In this document: in pieces, positions 24,431 through 35,827 of the stretch
Numbering within the stretch: position 1 is the first letter of the stretch
How the letters are laid out: each line of letters starts with the position of its first letter
NCBI GenBank assembly: GCA_003210895.1
Contig: QCUB01000011.1
Location: 1 to 36,396, forward strand
Origin: Prochlorococcus sp. AG-676-M04
GTDB taxonomy: Bacteria; Cyanobacteriota; Cyanobacteriia; PCC-6307; Cyanobiaceae
Direction of reading: 5' to 3'
Length of the DNA stretch: 36,396 bases
The notes under the pieces: generated by a model
The model's database searches: none
The model's input: the letters and a program-made list of their open reading frames with translations, nothing else
What the model was told of the DNA's origin: nothing
Made by a program: the position numbers and the translations under genes

Positions 24431-25219
24431 TTAAAATTTATTTCCAATTTTTGGAATTATTAATGAAGCAACGCAAATAACACTTATAGCAGGACCAGGA
24501 GATAAGTTTAAAACAATTGAAACAATAAAACCCAATAGAGAAATACAAAGTCCAAAGAATGAAGATCTCATCATTGCAATCCTAAGACTTTGTGCTTTAT
24601 CAAGTCCTAATAAAGTAGGTGTTGATAGTAATGCAATTACTAAAATTACTCCAACAGCTGACATTGAACTAACGATAACTAGTGCAGTCGTGAAACTTAG
24701 AGCTAGGTTTAATAAAGACACATTTATTCCACTAGCTGAGGCGCCTTCTGGATCTAATCCAACATATACAACTTTTTCATATCCGAACGTTATTAATAAA
24801 ATGAATGTTAGAAAAGCAATAATTGTTCTTAACAAATCGCTAAGGTTTGCGGTTAATAAATCCCCAAATAATACTGCCTCTAAATCTATTCTTATCCCAA
24901 GAAGTGGAATTAGTAAGACTCCAAAACCAAGCATGCCAGCAAGAATTGTATTCATTACTGCTTCATAATTTTCACTTTTTTTGTTAGTTAAACTTTCTGC
25001 AATAACTGCACCAAGAAGACCACTAATAACTCCTCCAATTGAGGGATGAATACCTAGAGCCAAAGCGAGAGCAAGTCCTGGTAAAACACAGTGAGAAATT
25101 AAATTGACTTGTAATAATCGTCTATGAGTTATTAAGACGGTTCCCATCGCTGGGCATAAGATTCCAGAGAAAATAGTAATTATTAAAGGGATTAACCACC
25201 AGTTGTTTAAAAAAGACAT
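24431..25219 (-). CDS. znuB: zinc/manganese ABC transporter permease
   Basis: ABC-3 family: LLQVNLISHCVLPGLALALALGIHP...; adjacent to zur/znuC/znuA. Confidence 0.88.
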   Translation of the reverse strand: MSFLNNWWLIPLIITIFSGILCPAMGTVLITHRRLLQVNLISHCVLPGLALALALGIHPSIGGVISGLLGAVIAESLTNKKSENYEAVMNTILAGMLGFGVLLIPLLGIRIDLEAVLFGDLLTANLSDLLRTIIAFLTFILLITFGYEKVVYVGLDPEGASASGINVSLLNLALSFTTALVIVSSMSAVGVILVIALLSTPTLLGLDKAQSLRIAMMRSSFFGLCISLLGFIVSIVLNLSPGPAISVICVASLIIPKIGNKF

Positions 25220-25275
25220 TAATCGTATGATTCGTTATGATCTAAAAAACAGGACATTAAAAGATCTTGAAAATG

Positions 25276-25671
25276 ATGGTAACCAAGCCTGACATTACCA
25301 AAAGACAAGAGCAACTTCTTGAAGAACTTAAAAAATGTGATGATGAATTGAGTGGTCAAGAATTGCATAGACAATTGATTATCGATGGCAAATCTATGGG
25401 TTTGACAACAGTTTATAGAAATCTTCAAGTTCTTATAAAACATGGATTAATTCGATCTAGACATCTTCCAACAGGTGAAGTACTTTACACTCCTGTTGAT
25501 AGAGATATTCACCATCTGACATGTGTTCAATGTGGAGAAACCTCCAAAATGGAAGGTTGTCCGGTAAAAGATATTCATAGCCCCAAGAAAAACCCAAAAA
25601 AATTTCAACTTTTGTTTCATACACTTGAATATTTCGGACTATGCCAAAACTGTTATCAAGCTCAGAGTTAA
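25276..25671 (+). CDS. zur: Fur-family regulator, probable zinc uptake regulator
   Basis: TKRQEQLLEELKKCDDELSGQELHRQL...GLTTVYRNLQVLIKHGLI...HHLTCVQCGETSKMEGC; embedded in znu cluster. Confidence 0.85.
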   Translation: MVTKPDITKRQEQLLEELKKCDDELSGQELHRQLIIDGKSMGLTTVYRNLQVLIKHGLIRSRHLPTGEVLYTPVDRDIHHLTCVQCGETSKMEGCPVKDIHSPKKNPKKFQLLFHTLEYFGLCQNCYQAQS

Positions 25672-25685
25672 ATTTAAAAATATTT

Positions 25686-26456
25686 TTAATCACAAGAATT
25701 ATTCTCTTTTAAAGAACTAATATTAAGATCATCTAATTTGCCTTGTATTGAATTGGGACTTCCGGATGCTAATACTGTTTTATCTAAAACTACTACCTGA
25801 TCATAATTATTGAGAGATGCACCCCAGTCATGACTGCTTATAAACAAAGCTAAGCCTGCATCTGCAAGTTGACGAACTATCTTAAGAAAATCGTCCTTTG
25901 CGGGAGGATCTAATGCAGCGCATGGTTCATCTAGTAGAAGAATACTTGCGGGAGACATTAAAGTCTTAGCCAAAAGGGCTCTTTGTTGTTGTCCACCAGA
26001 AAGAGAATCAAGTCTTCTATTTGCCAGATTTGAAATTCCAACTCTTTGCATTGTTGCTTCCAATTCGCAACATTTATTGACCCAAGACTTAGGATTTGCG
26101 AGAAGAGCCTTTATTTGGAATGGATTAGCATTTTTTGATTTTGAATATTTTATTTGACCTAAAGAGACTAATTTTTCAACAGTAATAGGAAATTTCCAAT
26201 TCATTGAGCTTCTTTGAGGCATAAGTGCAACATGGGATCTAGCTTTAACTAAACTTTCACCATTAATACTTATATCTCCAATATCAGGATTATTTTGTCC
26301 TTGCAATAATCTCAAAAGAGTTGATTTACCAGCACCATTTGGTCCTACAAGAGCCGTTAAAGTTCCTGGTTTTATTTCAACTGAAACCTTATTTAAAGCT
26401 GGTTTACTTTTTTTTGAATAAGAATAAGTTAGATTATCTGCGATTAAAGTAGACAT
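25686..26456 (-). CDS. znuC: zinc ABC transporter ATP-binding protein
   Basis: GPNGAGKSTLLRLL, LSGGQQQRALLAKTLM, ILLLDEP. Confidence 0.9.
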   Translation of the reverse strand: MSTLIADNLTYSYSKKSKPALNKVSVEIKPGTLTALVGPNGAGKSTLLRLLQGQNNPDIGDISINGESLVKARSHVALMPQRSSMNWKFPITVEKLVSLGQIKYSKSKNANPFQIKALLANPKSWVNKCCELEATMQRVGISNLANRRLDSLSGGQQQRALLAKTLMSPASILLLDEPCAALDPPAKDDFLKIVRQLADAGLALFISSHDWGASLNNYDQVVVLDKTVLASGSPNSIQGKLDDLNISSLKENNSCD

Positions 26457-26554: not shown

Positions 26555-26569
26555 TGAAAACGATTATCA
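26555..26569. promoter_or_regulatory. candidate Zur box in the znuC/znuA divergent region
   Basis: TGAAAAC-G-ATTATCA, 7-1-7 imperfect palindrome. Confidence 0.6.
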
Positions 26570-26595: not shown

Positions 26596-28086
26596 ATGTC
26601 AATTTTTAGAAGAGTACTCTTTAGTAATAAGAAATCTAAATATGCAATTGTCAAAAACTCTTTACTAGCAAGCACCATTTTATTTTCTACTGTTAGTCAA
26701 GATGTTTTGGCAAAAGGAAAATCATATGTAGCTGTAGAGCCACTAACTTGTGATCTGGTTAAATCAATAGCCTTAACTTCAGACAAAGTAACCTGTTTGG
26801 TAAAAAGAAAACAAGATGTACATGACTTTAAAATCACTCCAAGACAGGCTCAATTACTTAACAGTGCAGATAAAGTTTTTACTCTTGGGAAAGAGATGAC
26901 CCCAAGCATGAAAAATTGGGAGAGTAAGCCTCAAACTGTTGTAATTGGTGTAAGTGCTATAGATGTAGATGATCATTCCGATCATGGCGCACATGATGAT
27001 CATTCTGACCACTCTGCAGCAAAAGTAGATGATCATTCCGATCATGGCGGACATGACGATCATGCAGAGGGATCATTTGAATGGGCAGGCAAGTTTAAAC
27101 TATCTAAAGGTTCCTACAGTTGGTCATTCGCAAAGTTAGGCGGGGAATATGCAGATCCAGCCATGAAAATGGTAATTCTTGAATCAAATGATATTGAATC
27201 TTCTGAAGAACTAGCTAAAGAGCTATTAGGGTCTAAGGACTCAATAAACAAAAAAAATAATGGAACTCTCGTAGCGAGTAATAAAGCCTATGTTCTTAAT
27301 TTTGACCAAAGGAAGGAGATTACAGTATTTAATGTGAAAATTGAAAAAGATGGCCAATATACATTCTTTACTGAACATATGCCTTTTGAATTTGAATCAG
27401 ACGAGCACTTCTTTAAAGATGTATCCAATAGCGATGTCGAACCAATTGCACAAGTTCCAGATGAAGGAGAAGGTCATCACCATCATGACCATGGGGGTTT
27501 AGACCCACATGTTTGGCATGATCCTCATAACATAATAAAAATGGGAGAAATAGTAAGTAAAAGTTTAAAGAAAGATATCTCTGTTTTTAATAGATCTGAC
27601 AGAAAATTAATCAATTCGAGTTTTGCTTCTGTAGATTCAACACTAGAAGAACTTGATAGTTGGATTGTTGAACAGGTTTCAACAATTCCAGAATCAAATA
27701 GAGTTATTGTGTCTAAGCATAAAGCGATGGAATATTATGGTGATGCTTTTGGATTCGAGACTATTAGTTTACTAGATTTTCTTGGTGACTCATCAAGCCT
27801 AAGACCAGACAATATCCAAACAACATTGAAGATGCTTGATGAAGAAAATGTTAAGTCAATTTTTCCTGAACAAATACCAGCTTCTAAGTTATTAAAAAAT
27901 TTAAGCAGACAAAGTTCGGTTCCTTTAGCTTCTAATCAAATATTTGTTGATGGATTAATGATGACAGGGAATACAGTTTCAGTTGCGGTTCACAATACAT
28001 GTACCATTGTTAATTCATTAGGTGGATCATGTGATAGAAAAGCTGGCTCCAACTTGGAAGACACCTGGAATTCAATACAAAATTAA
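26596..28086 (+). CDS. znuA: zinc ABC transporter substrate-binding protein with His/Asp-rich loops and an inserted ~115-aa domain
   Basis: signal peptide, VHDFKITPRQAQLLNSADKVFTLG, HSDHGAHDDHSDH, HHHHDHGGLDPHVWHDPHN, C-terminal ZnuA fold (EENVKSIFPEQIP). Confidence 0.9.
   Translation: MSIFRRVLFSNKKSKYAIVKNSLLASTILFSTVSQDVLAKGKSYVAVEPLTCDLVKSIALTSDKVTCLVKRKQDVHDFKITPRQAQLLNSADKVFTLGKEMTPSMKNWESKPQTVVIGVSAIDVDDHSDHGAHDDHSDHSAAKVDDHSDHGGHDDHAEGSFEWAGKFKLSKGSYSWSFAKLGGEYADPAMKMVILESNDIESSEELAKELLGSKDSINKKNNGTLVASNKAYVLNFDQRKEITVFNVKIEKDGQYTFFTEHMPFEFESDEHFFKDVSNSDVEPIAQVPDEGEGHHHHDHGGLDPHVWHDPHNIIKMGEIVSKSLKKDISVFNRSDRKLINSSFASVDSTLEELDSWIVEQVSTIPESNRVIVSKHKAMEYYGDAFGFETISLLDFLGDSSSLRPDNIQTTLKMLDEENVKSIFPEQIPASKLLKNLSRQSSVPLASNQIFVDGLMMTGNTVSVAVHNTCTIVNSLGGSCDRKAGSNLEDTWNSIQN
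26965..27063. repeat. 60-bp-period internal duplication encoding VDDHSDHG(A/G)HDDH
   Basis: gtagatgatcattccgatcatggcg[c/g]acatga[t/c]gatcat at 26965 and 27025. Confidence 0.85.
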
Positions 28087-28096
28087 ACTTTTCTAT

Positions 28097-28111
28097 AGAT
28101 AACGGTTTTCA
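28097..28111. promoter_or_regulatory. candidate Zur box upstream of COG0523 gene
   Basis: AGATAAC-G-GTTTTCA, reverse complement TGAAAACCGTTATCT resembles the znuA upstream box. Confidence 0.5.
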
Positions 28112-28117
28112 TTATCA

Positions 28118-28152
28118 AATAATGTCTAATATGTTATTTGTTAGACATTATT
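28118..28152. promoter_or_regulatory. 12-bp perfect inverted repeat / hairpin
   Basis: AATAATGTCTAA-tatgttatttg-TTAGACATTATT between znuA and the GTPase gene. Confidence 0.7.
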
Positions 28153-28172
28153 CCAATTAGGTCAACTAATAG

Positions 28173-29531
28173 ATGAGAATTAACGAAAAAGTTCCAGTCA
28201 CTATCCTTACAGGATTCCTGGGTTCAGGTAAAACAACTCTTCTTAATAGAATATTAAGTGAAGAGCATGGTAAGAGAATCGCTGTAATTGAAAATGAATA
28301 CGGTGAAGTTGGGATAGATCAAGGTCTTGTAATAAATGCCGATGAAGAAGTATTTGAAATGTCTAATGGTTGCATTTGTTGTACTGTTCGCGGAGATCTT
28401 ATTAGAGTCCTTGGTAATTTAATGAAAAGAAGGGATAAATTTGACTATGTTTTAGTTGAAACAACTGGATTAGCTGACCCTGGTCCTGTTGCTCAAACAT
28501 TTTTTATGGATGAAGAAATTAGTTCTGAATTCACACTTGATGGAATAGTTACATTAGTTGATGCAGCTCATATTGATCAACAACTTGGACGTAGTGATGA
28601 GAGTTCTGAGCAAGTGGCATTTGCAGATGTCTTAGTTCTTAATAAAACTGATTTAGTCTCAGATGATGCTCTGAATAACCTTGAATCAAGATTAAGAGAT
28701 ATGAATCGAATGACTCGTATTATTCGCGCGGAGAAAGCAGAGGTTCCTATTGATACTGTTTTAAATTTGAGTGCATTCGATCTTGACCAAATTTTAAAGC
28801 GTAGACCAACTTTCTTAGAACCTGAATATCCTTTTGAATGGTCAGGAGTTTATGAAGTTGAGCCTGGGAAATATGAATTAAAACTTGAAGAAGGGCCAGA
28901 TCCTGAAATGTCTTTAGTAGCTTTTGCTAATCAAGGATTTAGTGAGGAAGAATTAAAAAAGGGTGCAGAAGCTTCTGTAAGACTTTATGCAGAAAAAGCT
29001 AAAAACTTAGAACCTGGAAATACTATTCCATATAATGAACATGTAAGTCTTAAATTGCAAAAAAAAGGATCTAAATCTTTTATTTTGGATGTTGAAAAAG
29101 CTTCAAAAGTTGGATTGTTTACACAACATACTGCTGAAGAATTTAACATGAAAGTGTTAAAAATTGATGCCCAAAATAATTTAAAGGAAATTCCTTTTAA
29201 AACTGAACGAAACTGGGTAGCAGAACATGAACATGATGACGAAGTTGGATCAATTGCAATAGAGCGTTTTGGAGATGTTGATCCTGAAAAGTTGAATACT
29301 TGGATGGGAAGACTTCTTTCCGAGAAAGGAGTTGATATATTCAGGACAAAAGGGTTTATTAGTTATTCTGGCAACCCACGAAGAATAGTATTTCAAGGAG
29401 TTCATATGTTATTTACTGCCCAACCAGATAAAGAATGGGGAAATGAACCACGAAGAAATCAACTCGTGTTTATTGGAAGAAACCTAGATGAAAAAGAGAT
29501 GCAAGAGGGATTTGATAAGTGCCTGATATAG
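28173..29531 (+). CDS. COG0523/CobW-family GTPase, putative zinc metallochaperone
   Basis: GFLGSGKTTLLNRIL, SNGCICCTVRGDL (CxCC), LNKTDLV; zinc cluster context. Confidence 0.92.
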   Translation: MRINEKVPVTILTGFLGSGKTTLLNRILSEEHGKRIAVIENEYGEVGIDQGLVINADEEVFEMSNGCICCTVRGDLIRVLGNLMKRRDKFDYVLVETTGLADPGPVAQTFFMDEEISSEFTLDGIVTLVDAAHIDQQLGRSDESSEQVAFADVLVLNKTDLVSDDALNNLESRLRDMNRMTRIIRAEKAEVPIDTVLNLSAFDLDQILKRRPTFLEPEYPFEWSGVYEVEPGKYELKLEEGPDPEMSLVAFANQGFSEEELKKGAEASVRLYAEKAKNLEPGNTIPYNEHVSLKLQKKGSKSFILDVEKASKVGLFTQHTAEEFNMKVLKIDAQNNLKEIPFKTERNWVAEHEHDDEVGSIAIERFGDVDPEKLNTWMGRLLSEKGVDIFRTKGFISYSGNPRRIVFQGVHMLFTAQPDKEWGNEPRRNQLVFIGRNLDEKEMQEGFDKCLI

Positions 29532-30592
29532 AACCATTTAGCCCTAGAGGCATGTTTCATGAGGGTTGGACTGCTAAAGTTGATGATTACGCAATAGTTT
29601 GTGGTTGGGCTATAAGAGGGAAGCTTTTTATCGTTGGAGATGTAGTCGGAGGACTTTATGGGTTCGAAGGAGATACAGGTAAGCTTATTTGGAAAAAGGA
29701 TGAAGCCCATTCAGGAGGTCTTCTTGCAATGTCTATCCATCCTAATGGAGAGATTTTTGCAACTTCAGGGCAAGACGGAATAGTTCGAATATTAAATTGC
29801 AATAATGGGGAAGAAATTAAAGCTATTAAACTTGGTAAAGGTTGGGTAGAACATTTAAGTTGGTCAAATGGCGGTTTATATTTAGCCATAGCTTTTTCCA
29901 AAAAAGTATATGTATTTAATCAAGATGGTAATGAAGAATGGGTTTCTGAAGAACATCCAAGTACAGTAAGCGCGATATCTTGGTCGAATAAAAATGAATT
30001 AGCAACGGCATGCTACGGACGAGTAACTTTCTTTGACGTAGCAAATAAAAAGACCAATCAAAAACTTGAATGGCAAGGTTCCTTAGTATCGATGCAGTTA
30101 AGCCCTGATGGAGATATAGTCGCTTGTGGAAGTCAAGATAATTCAGTACATTTCTGGCGTAGATCAACAGGACTTGATGCTGAAATGACAGGTTATCCAG
30201 GAAAGCCTTCTCACCTTTCTTTTGATGATACTGGCATGCTATTAGCAACAAGTGGTAGCGAAAGAATTACAGTATGGAGTTTTTCAGGTAATGGCCCTGA
30301 AGGAACTATGCCTGGAGAATTATGTCATCATAGTGAACCAATTTCTAGCCTAGCTTTTTCTAATAAAGGTTTGTTAGTTGCCTCTGGATCAAGAGATGGT
30401 TCAGTCGTAGCTAGTTTTCTTAAAAACGATGGTAATGGTGATCCTGTTGGGGCTGCTTTTGCTGGAGATTTAGTTGGAGATATTGCTTGGAGACCCGATG
30501 ACTGTGCTTTAGCCGCAGTTAATGCAAAGGGTGTTGTAACCGTTTGGAATTTCAAAGTACGTACTAGTTCCTTTTCAAAGGGATTCAAGTAA
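29519..30592 (+). CDS. WD40-repeat protein, GTG start overlapping the GTPase gene
   Basis: repeats such as LLAMSIHPNGEIFATSGQDGIVRIL, SLAFSNKGLLVASGSRDGSVV. Confidence 0.9.
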   Translation: MPDIEPFSPRGMFHEGWTAKVDDYAIVCGWAIRGKLFIVGDVVGGLYGFEGDTGKLIWKKDEAHSGGLLAMSIHPNGEIFATSGQDGIVRILNCNNGEEIKAIKLGKGWVEHLSWSNGGLYLAIAFSKKVYVFNQDGNEEWVSEEHPSTVSAISWSNKNELATACYGRVTFFDVANKKTNQKLEWQGSLVSMQLSPDGDIVACGSQDNSVHFWRRSTGLDAEMTGYPGKPSHLSFDDTGMLLATSGSERITVWSFSGNGPEGTMPGELCHHSEPISSLAFSNKGLLVASGSRDGSVVASFLKNDGNGDPVGAAFAGDLVGDIAWRPDDCALAAVNAKGVVTVWNFKVRTSSFSKGFK

Positions 30593-32566: not shown

Positions 32567-34012
32567 ATGAAGAGATATATGTTTTCAAATTATCGCCCTA
32601 AAAATAGTTTTGATGAATACTTTAAAGACAATGTAAATTCTGCTAGAGAAATTTTATCCCCCTTATTGTCCGCTCTTGATAATATGGGTCTAACCGAACT
32701 GAACAGAAATCACTCAGCAGCCAAGAAATTATTACTTAGGCATGGAGCAACTTTCAGGTTAAATGACACAGGATTAAAAGGAACAGAAAGAATACTACCA
32801 TTTGACCCTTTACCAAGGATAATAAGTAAGGATGATTGGATAACATTAGAAGAAGGACTAAAACAGAGACTTGAGGCAATAGATCTATTCTTAGATGATG
32901 TATATAACTCTCAAAATATTATTAATGATGGAATAATTCCAAGAGAGTTGATAGAGAGCTCAGATGGATGGAGACCTCAAATGTTAGGTTTTAAGCCTCC
33001 ATTAAATAAATGGTGTCAAATTTCAGGACTTGATTTAATAAGAGATGGAAAAGGTACTTGGCATGTTTTAGAAGATAATTTGCGATGTCCTTCTGGTGTA
33101 GCTTATTTTCTAGAGAATAGATTAGTTATGAAGAATATCTTTCCTAACCTTTTCTCGGGAAGAATAGTTAAACCTATTGATGATTACCCATCATATTTAC
33201 TAAAAACGCTCAAAGAACTTGCTGTTTGGACAGATACTCCAAAAATAGTCTTATTAACTCCTGGAATTTTTAATAGTGCCTATTTCGAACATAGTTATCT
33301 AGCTCAAGAAATGGGAATTCAATTAGTTCAAGGTCATGACCTTGTTTGTATTGATGATTATGCTTACTTAAAAACTACATCTGGATTAAAGAGGGTGGAT
33401 GTAATTTATAGAAGAATTGATGATGATTTTTTAGATCCAATTCATTTTAGAAAAGATTCATATTTAGGTGTTAGTGGATTACTGGATGTTATGAAAGCAG
33501 GTCATGTTGCCCTCGCAAATGCTCCTGGGACAGGATTAGCAGATGACAAAATGATTTATTCTTTTGTTCCTAAAATAATAAAATATTTTCTTGATGAAGA
33601 ACCAATTATAAAAAACGTTGAAACCTATATTTGCTATTACGAAAAGGATAGAGAATATGTTTTAAAAAACCTTCCAAAACTTGTTGTTAAATCAGTCTCA
33701 GAAGCGGGTGGATATGGAATGTTAATTGGTCCCCAATCAACTACAACTGAGATAAATGAATTCTCTGATAAAATTAAAAAAAATCCAAGAAATTTTATAG
33801 CTCAACCTACTCTAGAACTTTCTACAGTCCCCTCATTATGTGATGGTGAACTTTATCCTTGCCACGTTGATTTAAGACCTTATATTTTAAGGGGCAAAGA
33901 TTCTTGGGTAAGTCCAGGAGGGCTAACTAGAGTTGCTTTAAGAAAAGGATCATTAGTAGTTAATTCATCTCAGGGTGGTGGATGCAAAGATACATGGGTT
34001 GTAGGAAATTAA
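32567..34012 (+). CDS. circularly permuted ATP-grasp protein (COG2308)
   Basis: GTERILPFDPLPRII, DGWRPQMLGFKPP, LEDNLRCPSGVAYFLENR, RRIDDDFLDP, KSVSEAGGYGMLIGP. Confidence 0.9.
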   Translation: MKRYMFSNYRPKNSFDEYFKDNVNSAREILSPLLSALDNMGLTELNRNHSAAKKLLLRHGATFRLNDTGLKGTERILPFDPLPRIISKDDWITLEEGLKQRLEAIDLFLDDVYNSQNIINDGIIPRELIESSDGWRPQMLGFKPPLNKWCQISGLDLIRDGKGTWHVLEDNLRCPSGVAYFLENRLVMKNIFPNLFSGRIVKPIDDYPSYLLKTLKELAVWTDTPKIVLLTPGIFNSAYFEHSYLAQEMGIQLVQGHDLVCIDDYAYLKTTSGLKRVDVIYRRIDDDFLDPIHFRKDSYLGVSGLLDVMKAGHVALANAPGTGLADDKMIYSFVPKIIKYFLDEEPIIKNVETYICYYEKDREYVLKNLPKLVVKSVSEAGGYGMLIGPQSTTTEINEFSDKIKKNPRNFIAQPTLELSTVPSLCDGELYPCHVDLRPYILRGKDSWVSPGGLTRVALRKGSLVVNSSQGGGCKDTWVVGN

Positions 34013-34013
34013 T

Positions 34014-34967
34014 ATGCTTTTAAGTCGGGTAGCTGAATCTCTTTATTGGATTAATCGTTATTTAGAACGTGCGGAAAATATCTCTCGTTTCGTCGAAGTA
34101 AGTGAAGCGATGTCTTTAGATTGTCCGCCAGGTAGTGCAGAACCATGGCTTCCACTTATTGATGCTTCAAGTGATAGAGAAACTTTTGATTCAAGATTTC
34201 CAGAAAAAAAGCAAGATGATGTTATTAATTTTTTAATAAGAGATCGTATAAATCCCAACAGCATAATCTCTTGTATTCAAAAGGCAAGAGAAAATGCAAG
34301 GCAAATAAGAGACGTAATGACATCTGAGATGTGGGAACAGATAAATATTTTATATTGGAATTTACAAGAGGGTGAAACAATATGGGATCTTTCAAGACAG
34401 GAGCAATTAAGTGAAATAAGAAGAGGATGTCAGTTGTTTTACGGAATTACAGATGCAACTCTAAGTAAAGATCTTGCATGTCAATTTAGTATTTTAGGAA
34501 GATTACTAGAAAGAGCAGATAAGACATCAAGAATATTAGATGTAAAATACTATTTACTACTACCAAGCTTAGATGAGCTAGGAGGCGTACTTGATGAGTT
34601 GCAATGGATTGCTCTTTTGCGTTCGGCCGGGGCTTATCAAATGTTCAGGAAAGCAGAACAAAATTCCATTAAGCCAAATTCAGTAGCAAGATTTCTCTTG
34701 CTAGATAATAATTTCCCAAGATCTGTTAGATATTGCTTAGATGGTATAAGTAATACACTTAAAATGATAGATAAAAATCCAATATCAGATAATCCCTCAA
34801 AACTTGAATGCATGAGAGGTTTACTTAAAGCAAAGTGGAGTTATATCAGAATTGAAGATATAATCGATAACGGACTTCATGAAGCTATTGATTCACTGCA
34901 AATTGATTTAAACAAACTGCATAATCTTATACAAGATAAATATTTTATAAATAAAGAGTTTGATTAA
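34014..34967 (+). CDS. alpha-E domain protein (COG2307)
   Basis: LLSRVAESLYWINRYLERAENISRFVEV, GRLLERADKTSRILDVKYY. Confidence 0.92.
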   Translation: MLLSRVAESLYWINRYLERAENISRFVEVSEAMSLDCPPGSAEPWLPLIDASSDRETFDSRFPEKKQDDVINFLIRDRINPNSIISCIQKARENARQIRDVMTSEMWEQINILYWNLQEGETIWDLSRQEQLSEIRRGCQLFYGITDATLSKDLACQFSILGRLLERADKTSRILDVKYYLLLPSLDELGGVLDELQWIALLRSAGAYQMFRKAEQNSIKPNSVARFLLLDNNFPRSVRYCLDGISNTLKMIDKNPISDNPSKLECMRGLLKAKWSYIRIEDIIDNGLHEAIDSLQIDLNKLHNLIQDKYFINKEFD

Positions 34968-35827
34968 TGAAAATAAAATATATTCATAACCTTGAATATT
35001 CTTATGAAGAATCAGTTCAATTAGGGGAACATAGATTATGTATCAAACCAAGATCGCATGGATTTCAAAGGTTGATAAATTTTGATTTAAATATCTCTCC
35101 AAATCCTAAGATTCTTTATCCTTTACTAGCAGCAAGCGGTGAAGAGATTAACAGAATTACCTTTGAGGGCTATACAAATAATCTTTCGATTAAAGCCGTC
35201 AGCGAGGTTGAGACTCTTGAACATCCAGATATTTTTGATGGTGTTAAAGAAAGAGATCTTACATTACCCTTTTGCAGAAGCATCATAAATAGAGATCTTC
35301 AAGGTGCCCTAGAAGGATGGATGCCAAATGGACAGCATGATCCTTCTGCTGTTGAATTAGCTCAAGAAGCTTTGGCAGGCAGCAGCAATAATGCATTATC
35401 TTTCACATATCAATTAATAGAAATTATTCAGGATCGAGTAAAGTACACAAAAAGACATACAGGGCCAGCATGGCCAGCCAGCAGAACTCTTAGAGAAAGA
35501 GTTGGATCATGCAGAGACTTAGCAATGCTTATGGTAGAAGCCTGCAGATCAGTTGGGATTCCAAGCAGGTTTGTCAGTGGTTATCATTTTGAAGATCCCT
35601 TACCAAATGAATTTGATCTACATGCATGGGCTGAATTATATATTCCTGGAGCAGGATGGAGAGGTTTTGATCCAAGTGGTAAAGGATTAATAGATGAGAG
35701 ATATTTAACATTAGTATCTTCTTCAAAATCTAACCTTACAGCTGTAATAACAGGAAACTTTAGAGGAAGAACAAACCTAAAGAATAATTTTTCATGGGAA
35801 ATAAGACCTCTACAAATTAATAATTAA
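34967..35827 (+). CDS. transglutaminase-like protein (COG1305)
   Basis: RTLRERVGSCRDLAMLMVEACRSVGIPSRFVSGY...DLHAWAELYIPGAGWRGFDPS. Confidence 0.93.
   Translation: MKIKYIHNLEYSYEESVQLGEHRLCIKPRSHGFQRLINFDLNISPNPKILYPLLAASGEEINRITFEGYTNNLSIKAVSEVETLEHPDIFDGVKERDLTLPFCRSIINRDLQGALEGWMPNGQHDPSAVELAQEALAGSSNNALSFTYQLIEIIQDRVKYTKRHTGPAWPASRTLRERVGSCRDLAMLMVEACRSVGIPSRFVSGYHFEDPLPNEFDLHAWAELYIPGAGWRGFDPSGKGLIDERYLTLVSSSKSNLTAVITGNFRGRTNLKNNFSWEIRPLQINN

Follow-up and report, generated by a model that had tools for sequence, protein, structure and literature searches.

A mobile accessory domain, probably metal binding, shared by a picocyanobacterial ZnuA-type zinc binder and the neighboring COG0523 GTPase

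Two adjacent genes of a picocyanobacterial zinc locus, encoding a ZnuA-type substrate-binding protein and a COG0523 (CobW/ZNG1-type) GTPase, each carry a copy of the same compact domain of ~105 residues, which consists mostly of beta strands. The hosts belong to known families, but no library that was searched contains the shared domain, and this domain family seems to be uncatalogued. It is best read as an accessory module of zinc-handling proteins that is both ancient and mobile. From sequence comparison, we rather favor the view that this mobile module is probably zinc binding and would hold a divalent metal through an E/D/H/E set of residues.

The window (i.e., the whole 36,396-nucleotide stretch of DNA that was analyzed) corresponds to contig C11 of the picocyanobacterial genome Prochlorococcus sp. 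AG-676-M04, which is incomplete (72%). Its gene order is znuB (permease, ABC-3 by Pfam; 24431..25219, minus strand), a Fur-family regulator gene (probable Zur; 25267..25671, plus strand; PF01475, 68.0 bits), znuC (ATPase; 25686..26456, minus strand), znuA (26596..28086, plus strand), the COG0523 GTPase gene (28173..29531, plus strand), and a WD40 beta-propeller gene that overlaps the GTPase stop codon (29519..30592, plus strand). The plus-strand Fur-family gene sits between the minus-strand znuB and znuC (24431 to 26456) and splits what is usually a single transport operon. A possible Zur box (TGAAAACGATTATCA; 26555..26569, no strand assigned) lies between the divergent znuC and znuA genes; it is weak, the pattern being matched overall no more often than by chance.

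The znuA product (496 aa) is, by its family match, a zinc ABC transporter substrate-binding protein of the ZnuA type, for which high-affinity zinc binding is predicted. It matches Pfam ZnuA (PF01297) with 141.8 bits (curated cut-off, 29) in two stretches with the insert between them. The His-rich loop between the two ZnuA lobes is present, and the insert flanks hold 9 His in 34 residues on the left and 6 in 36 on the right. Along the plus strand, the left His/Asp-rich loop (aa 127 to 160; 26974..27075) is followed by the core of the accessory domain (aa 161 to 266, FEWAG...FTEHMPFEF; 27076..27393), a C-terminal tail of the module that is kept only among bacterial ZnuA copies (ESDEHFFKDVSNSDVEPI; 27394..27447), and the right His-rich loop (GHHHHDHGGL; 27472..27501) ahead of the second-lobe DPHVWHDP motif. 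The GTPase (452 aa; cobW, 206.7 bits; CobW_C, 87.5 bits) comprises, on the same strand, the GTPase domain (Pfam cobW, aa 8 to 184; 28194..28724) with the P-loop GFLGSGKTT and, read from the sequence, a GCICC (CxCC) motif (aa 66 to 70; 28368-28382), the second copy of the accessory domain (core aa 221 to 324, FEWSG...FTQHTAEEF; 28833..29144), an HEHDD sequence motif (aa 352 to 356; 29226..29240), and, immediately after it, the Pfam CobW_C domain (aa 359 to 451; 29247..29525).

An earlier note on this DNA had proposed by eye that the two segments are homologous, and the proposal proved to be right. The peptides that it had quoted are in frame, with F161 of ZnuA at 27076 and F221 of the GTPase at 28833, and the shared order of FEW[AS]G, GxY, DPxM, and FTxHxxxEF is seen in both segments. 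The charged EEL helix that it had listed among the common features is the weakest element: a helix is modeled there in both proteins, but the alignment is gapped. BLASTP of the ZnuA insert against the GTPase insert gave 34.3 bits (30% identity over 117 columns; E = 1e-7), and the Smith-Waterman score of 89 was reached by none of 2,000 shuffles (31.3 +/- 5.4; maximum, 62). A profile-profile comparison of the two families with hhalign returned a probability of 96.9 (P of about 1.3 to 1.9e-10). As a control, the profile of the ZnuA insert family was slid along the GTPase alignment; the signal peaked at the insert, while windows elsewhere gave P values of 0.27 to 0.7. Independent genome searches with the GTPase insert recovered ZnuA (E down to 2e-7), and those with the ZnuA insert recovered GTPases (E down to 8e-7). 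The pairwise identity of just about 30% might be taken to suggest a chance resemblance or convergence on short motifs, but the shuffle, hhalign, and profile-control statistics refute this explanation, and haloarchaeal and Alicyclobacillus intermediates match both the ZnuA and the GTPase insert types; we regard it as practically dismissed.

Both segments lie outside the canonical architecture of their hosts, as the earlier note had also held. The ZnuA segment occupies the gap of the Pfam match, and residues 221 to 324 of the GTPase fall between cobW (8 to 184) and CobW_C (359 to 451); the segment is hence not ordinary CobW_C, whose match is confined to residues 359 to 451. Paralogues without the domain, i.e., a 348-aa COG0523 GTPase and a 302-aa ZnuA-family protein (G000:C18), are encoded in the same genome.

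AlphaFold models of the two inserts were built from alignments of 37 rows that combined window and fetched sequences. Both are of good quality (mean pLDDT, 88.8 and 89.3; pTM, 0.83 each) and match in the succession of their elements (three strands, a helix, more strands, a short helix at HxxxEF, and one or more terminal strands), an agreement that is not fully independent since the two alignments share rows. Foldseek searches of the PDB with both models yielded no match at E <= 0.001 and no structural homologue with a bound metal. The insert has no match near any curated cut-off in Pfam or NCBIfam and none below E = 0.5 among PDB chains by sequence, so that a known family or fold is ruled out within these libraries. 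Text searches of papers available without subscription found no published description of the domain.

Across 48 diverse copies, including both from the window, only five residues (E, D, H, E, and F) are invariant, while the W, both G residues, and the P of DP are kept in 46 to 47 copies. The invariant residues are E162, D187, H261, E265, and F266 in ZnuA and E222, D243, H319, E323, and F324 in the GTPase. All of them except F are potential metal ligands. The earlier note had suggested that the His and Glu of FTxHxxxEF could be ligands, an idea that is strengthened by the invariance in all 48 copies of these two residues together with the Glu of FEW and the Asp of DP. That four of the five invariant residues are potential ligands and that the recognized hosts all handle metal form the main argument for metal binding, and the domain may well be a new metal-binding family. 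The invariant residues could alternatively serve folding.

In ZnuA the domain is positioned within the His-rich loop beside the metal cleft, and the GTPase copy separates the GTPase domain from CobW_C, with a His-containing linker beside it. We propose that the domain itself may hold a divalent metal, most likely zinc, through E162/D187/H261/E265 in ZnuA and E222/D243/H319/E323 in the GTPase. The periplasmic ZnuA copy, together with its flanking His-rich arms, would trap the scarce zinc and retain it close to the ZnuA cleft, and the cytoplasmic GTPase copy would hold or gate zinc beside the CxCC/GTP site and CobW_C. We infer the metal binding, the zinc specificity, and the hand-over to the ZnuA cleft or the GTPase site from these positions and the conservation pattern. 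Since the hosts reside in different compartments, a shared metal ligand is a simpler assumption than a shared protein partner. The insert might instead be a structural spacer or stability domain that keeps the His-rich loops apart and has no ligand of its own, and its location between the two His-rich arms of ZnuA and its capacity to be doubled fit such a role. A spacer, however, gives no reason for E, D, H, and E to be invariant across GTPases, lipoproteins, and a membrane protein, and we consider this explanation improbable.

The GTPase insert was found in 38 of 151 genomes of the picocyanobacterial family, in other families of the cyanobacterial phylum, in SAR86 and alpha-, gamma-, and "delta"-proteobacteria, and on plasmids of Pantoea and Paraburkholderia. 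A Prochlorococcus single-cell genome (L166) encodes a GTPase insert with 96% identity to the window copy. ZnuA-type binders carry the domain inside the His-rich loop in 30 of the 151 picocyanobacterial-family genomes, in alphaproteobacterial single cells, in two gammaproteobacteria (G1065 and G954), in four genomes of a phylum labeled Deltaproteobacteria (G1108, G1099, G1116, and G1117), and in haloarchaea (Haloarcula, Halorubrum, and Halorientalis). Standalone haloarchaeal copies of 183 to 208 residues, found in Halomontanus, Halosolutus, and Natrinema, begin with a twin-arginine sequence and have a lipobox-like GC and His-rich arms. A membrane protein of Alicyclobacillus (L225:4794-5705), encoded on a plasmid with cation transporters, holds the domain between hydrophobic segments; this protein has no Pfam or NCBIfam match, and its HSILPDHW motif presumably resembles those of nickel/cobalt permeases. 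His-rich sequence flanks the domain in the ZnuA-type, lipoprotein, and membrane-protein hosts, and GTPase hosts have an HEHDD-type motif between the domain and CobW_C. The standalone copy on the Natrinema plasmid (L228:4875-5426) directly follows genes for urease and its accessory proteins. This context hints at nickel instead of zinc for that copy, and the metal specificity of the domain may accordingly not be zinc throughout. A phage or viral origin was rejected: none of the phage sequences matched, the ZnuA type had no match in viral contigs, and the Alicyclobacillus type gave only 17-residue chance matches.

The inserts are far more alike than the ZnuA proteins that carry them. The window ZnuA and that of the gammaproteobacterium G1065 are 73% identical in the insert and 21% in the backbone; the corresponding values are 75% and 21 to 24% for Synechococcus against G1065 and G954, and 71% and 25% for two members of one phylum (G1108 and G1099). 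Overall, bacterial ZnuA inserts show 71 to 75% identity where backbones show 21 to 26%. In the insert tree, the bacterial ZnuA inserts form one clade (support, 100/99), apart from the haloarchaeal ZnuA and standalone copies, and the GTPase copies are on the other side of a branch (89/88). The host backbones of the bacterial inserts do not form one clade: in a backbone tree that includes insert-less ZnuA proteins, insert presence requires four changes, at least three of which are forced by starred branches, and G1099 is sister to the insert-less G1102a (100/100). The coherence of the insert clade together with the scatter of its hosts implies that the module moved between ZnuA binders at one site. 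Judging from these trees, it has entered different ZnuA backbones, every time in the same His-rich loop.

The two window genes adjoin and both have the domain, which might suggest that the ZnuA insert is a recent copy from the neighboring GTPase gene. The tree rejects this, as the GTPase and the exported copies are on separate branches: the window ZnuA copy lies within the bacterial ZnuA insert clade, the GTPase copies beyond the 89/88 branch. Moreover, the window ZnuA insert shares 73% identity with the ZnuA insert of a gammaproteobacterium, as against about 30% with the insert of the neighboring GTPase. A recent copy is thus very improbable.

The ZnuA domain is doubled in tandem in Prochlorococcus HNLC2 (copies 90% identical) and G1117 (88%), and also in G067 and G1116. 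The doubling arose at least twice, and it is as expected of a capacity module. Two-copy ZnuA loci are L134:1407-3278, L288:4541-6424, L289:7233-9089, and L103:6712-8556 (HNLC2 and G067 and, separately, the phylum of G503). An 873-aa frame with two copies (G078:C1; L102:6727-9345) contains a run of undetermined residues, is a probable assembly join, and was set aside.

Among the 151 picocyanobacterial-family genomes, the ZnuA insert never occurs without the GTPase insert (30 of 30; Fisher p of 1e-24, uncorrected for kinship, which inflates the association). The two inserts are usually 1.7 to 4.0 kb apart (27 checked), with one exception at 874 kb. The earlier note had implied a special pairing of the two proteins, possibly through a common docking domain, but outside the picocyanobacteria each insert type occurs without the other. 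SAR86, Porticoccaceae, Halochromatium, G101, and G112 have the GTPase insert and an insert-less ZnuA; G1065 and G954 have the ZnuA insert, one domain match per genome, and COG0523 GTPases of ordinary length; and the binder is the sole domain match found on haloarchaeal plasmids. The two inserts are associated as joint members of a zinc regulon and do not form an obligate couple.

These distributions also bear on the idea that the domain, binding no metal itself, is a docking module for a common partner such as the WD40 protein or another zinc chaperone. The 30 of 30 co-occurrence, usually at a spacing of about 2 kb, and the pairing of the GTPase gene with a WD40 gene in both cyanobacteria and Proteobacteria speak for docking. 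Yet ZnuA is exported, and no export signal was seen in the GTPase or the WD40 protein, so that one partner cannot meet both copies. With hosts in different compartments and each insert type found alone in some genomes, shared docking is less likely than a common metal ligand, and we hold it to be unlikely. The GTPase-WD40 gene pair itself recurs in SAR86, alphaproteobacteria, Porticoccaceae, K189A, and a Pantoea plasmid, and from this recurrence the GTPase and WD40 products probably work together.

Metal binding remains our preferred reading of the shared domain. We see about an even chance that it is a novel zinc-binding E/D/H/E domain, with no close fold in the PDB, that has spread horizontally among unrelated ZnuA backbones as a plug-in of the His-rich loop. 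On this reading, its hosts in bacteria and archaea are binders that are periplasmic or extracellular, GTPases of the cytoplasm, lipoproteins, and a membrane protein, and in zinc-poor seawater it may serve the same biochemical step on either side of the membrane. The abundant marine picocyanobacteria live at very low zinc, and a domain present in both a zinc binder and a COG0523 chaperone would give a concrete site for the capture and passing-on of zinc. The haloarchaeal lipoproteins and the Alicyclobacillus membrane protein are annotated as hypothetical, and the domain suggests a metal role for them.

Several features of the locus have counterparts in known systems. In Synechococcus WH8102, the cluster synw0968-0973, which includes znuABC, is repressed by Zur, and a Zur box was reported in the corresponding znuC/znuA intergenic region (PMC9337993); we liken this cluster to that of the window as homologous, a comparison of the clusters rather than of the WH8102 ZnuA sequence itself. 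Like ZnuA/AztC-type binders (PF01297), the window ZnuA has two lobes, a His-rich loop ahead of the second lobe, a DPHxW motif, and adjacent znuB and znuC genes; unlike them, and unlike its 302-aa paralogue, it has the ~105-aa domain in that loop. According to the available part of Haas et al. 2009 (PMC2770081), COG0523 subfamily 5 holds most eukaryotic COG0523 proteins, and its prokaryotic members cluster with WD40 and znuABC genes, some having predicted Zur sites. The window GTPase resembles this subfamily in its cobW and CobW_C domains, GCxCC motif, and WD40 and znuABC neighbors, a likeness by gene context rather than by a tree with reference subfamilies, but it differs in having a domain between the two Pfam domains, of which that part of the study contains no mention that we found. 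ZepA, a Zur-controlled exported zinc protein with a beta-sandwich domain that is reported to be absent from Archaea (PMC10957091), is, by its published description, similar to the insert domain in its zinc uptake context and beta-rich structure, and zepA is often near znuA or COG0523 genes. ZrgA (NCBIfam NF047873) matches the window ZnuA weakly (E = 0.003, far below the cut-off); the match covers residues 86 to 158, mainly the His-rich stretch ahead of the insert, and ZrgA was rejected as an identity for the insert. Farther along the window (32567 to 35827), three adjacent genes encode a circularly permuted ATP-grasp protein, an alpha-E protein, and a transglutaminase-like protein; nothing visible connects this cluster with zinc.
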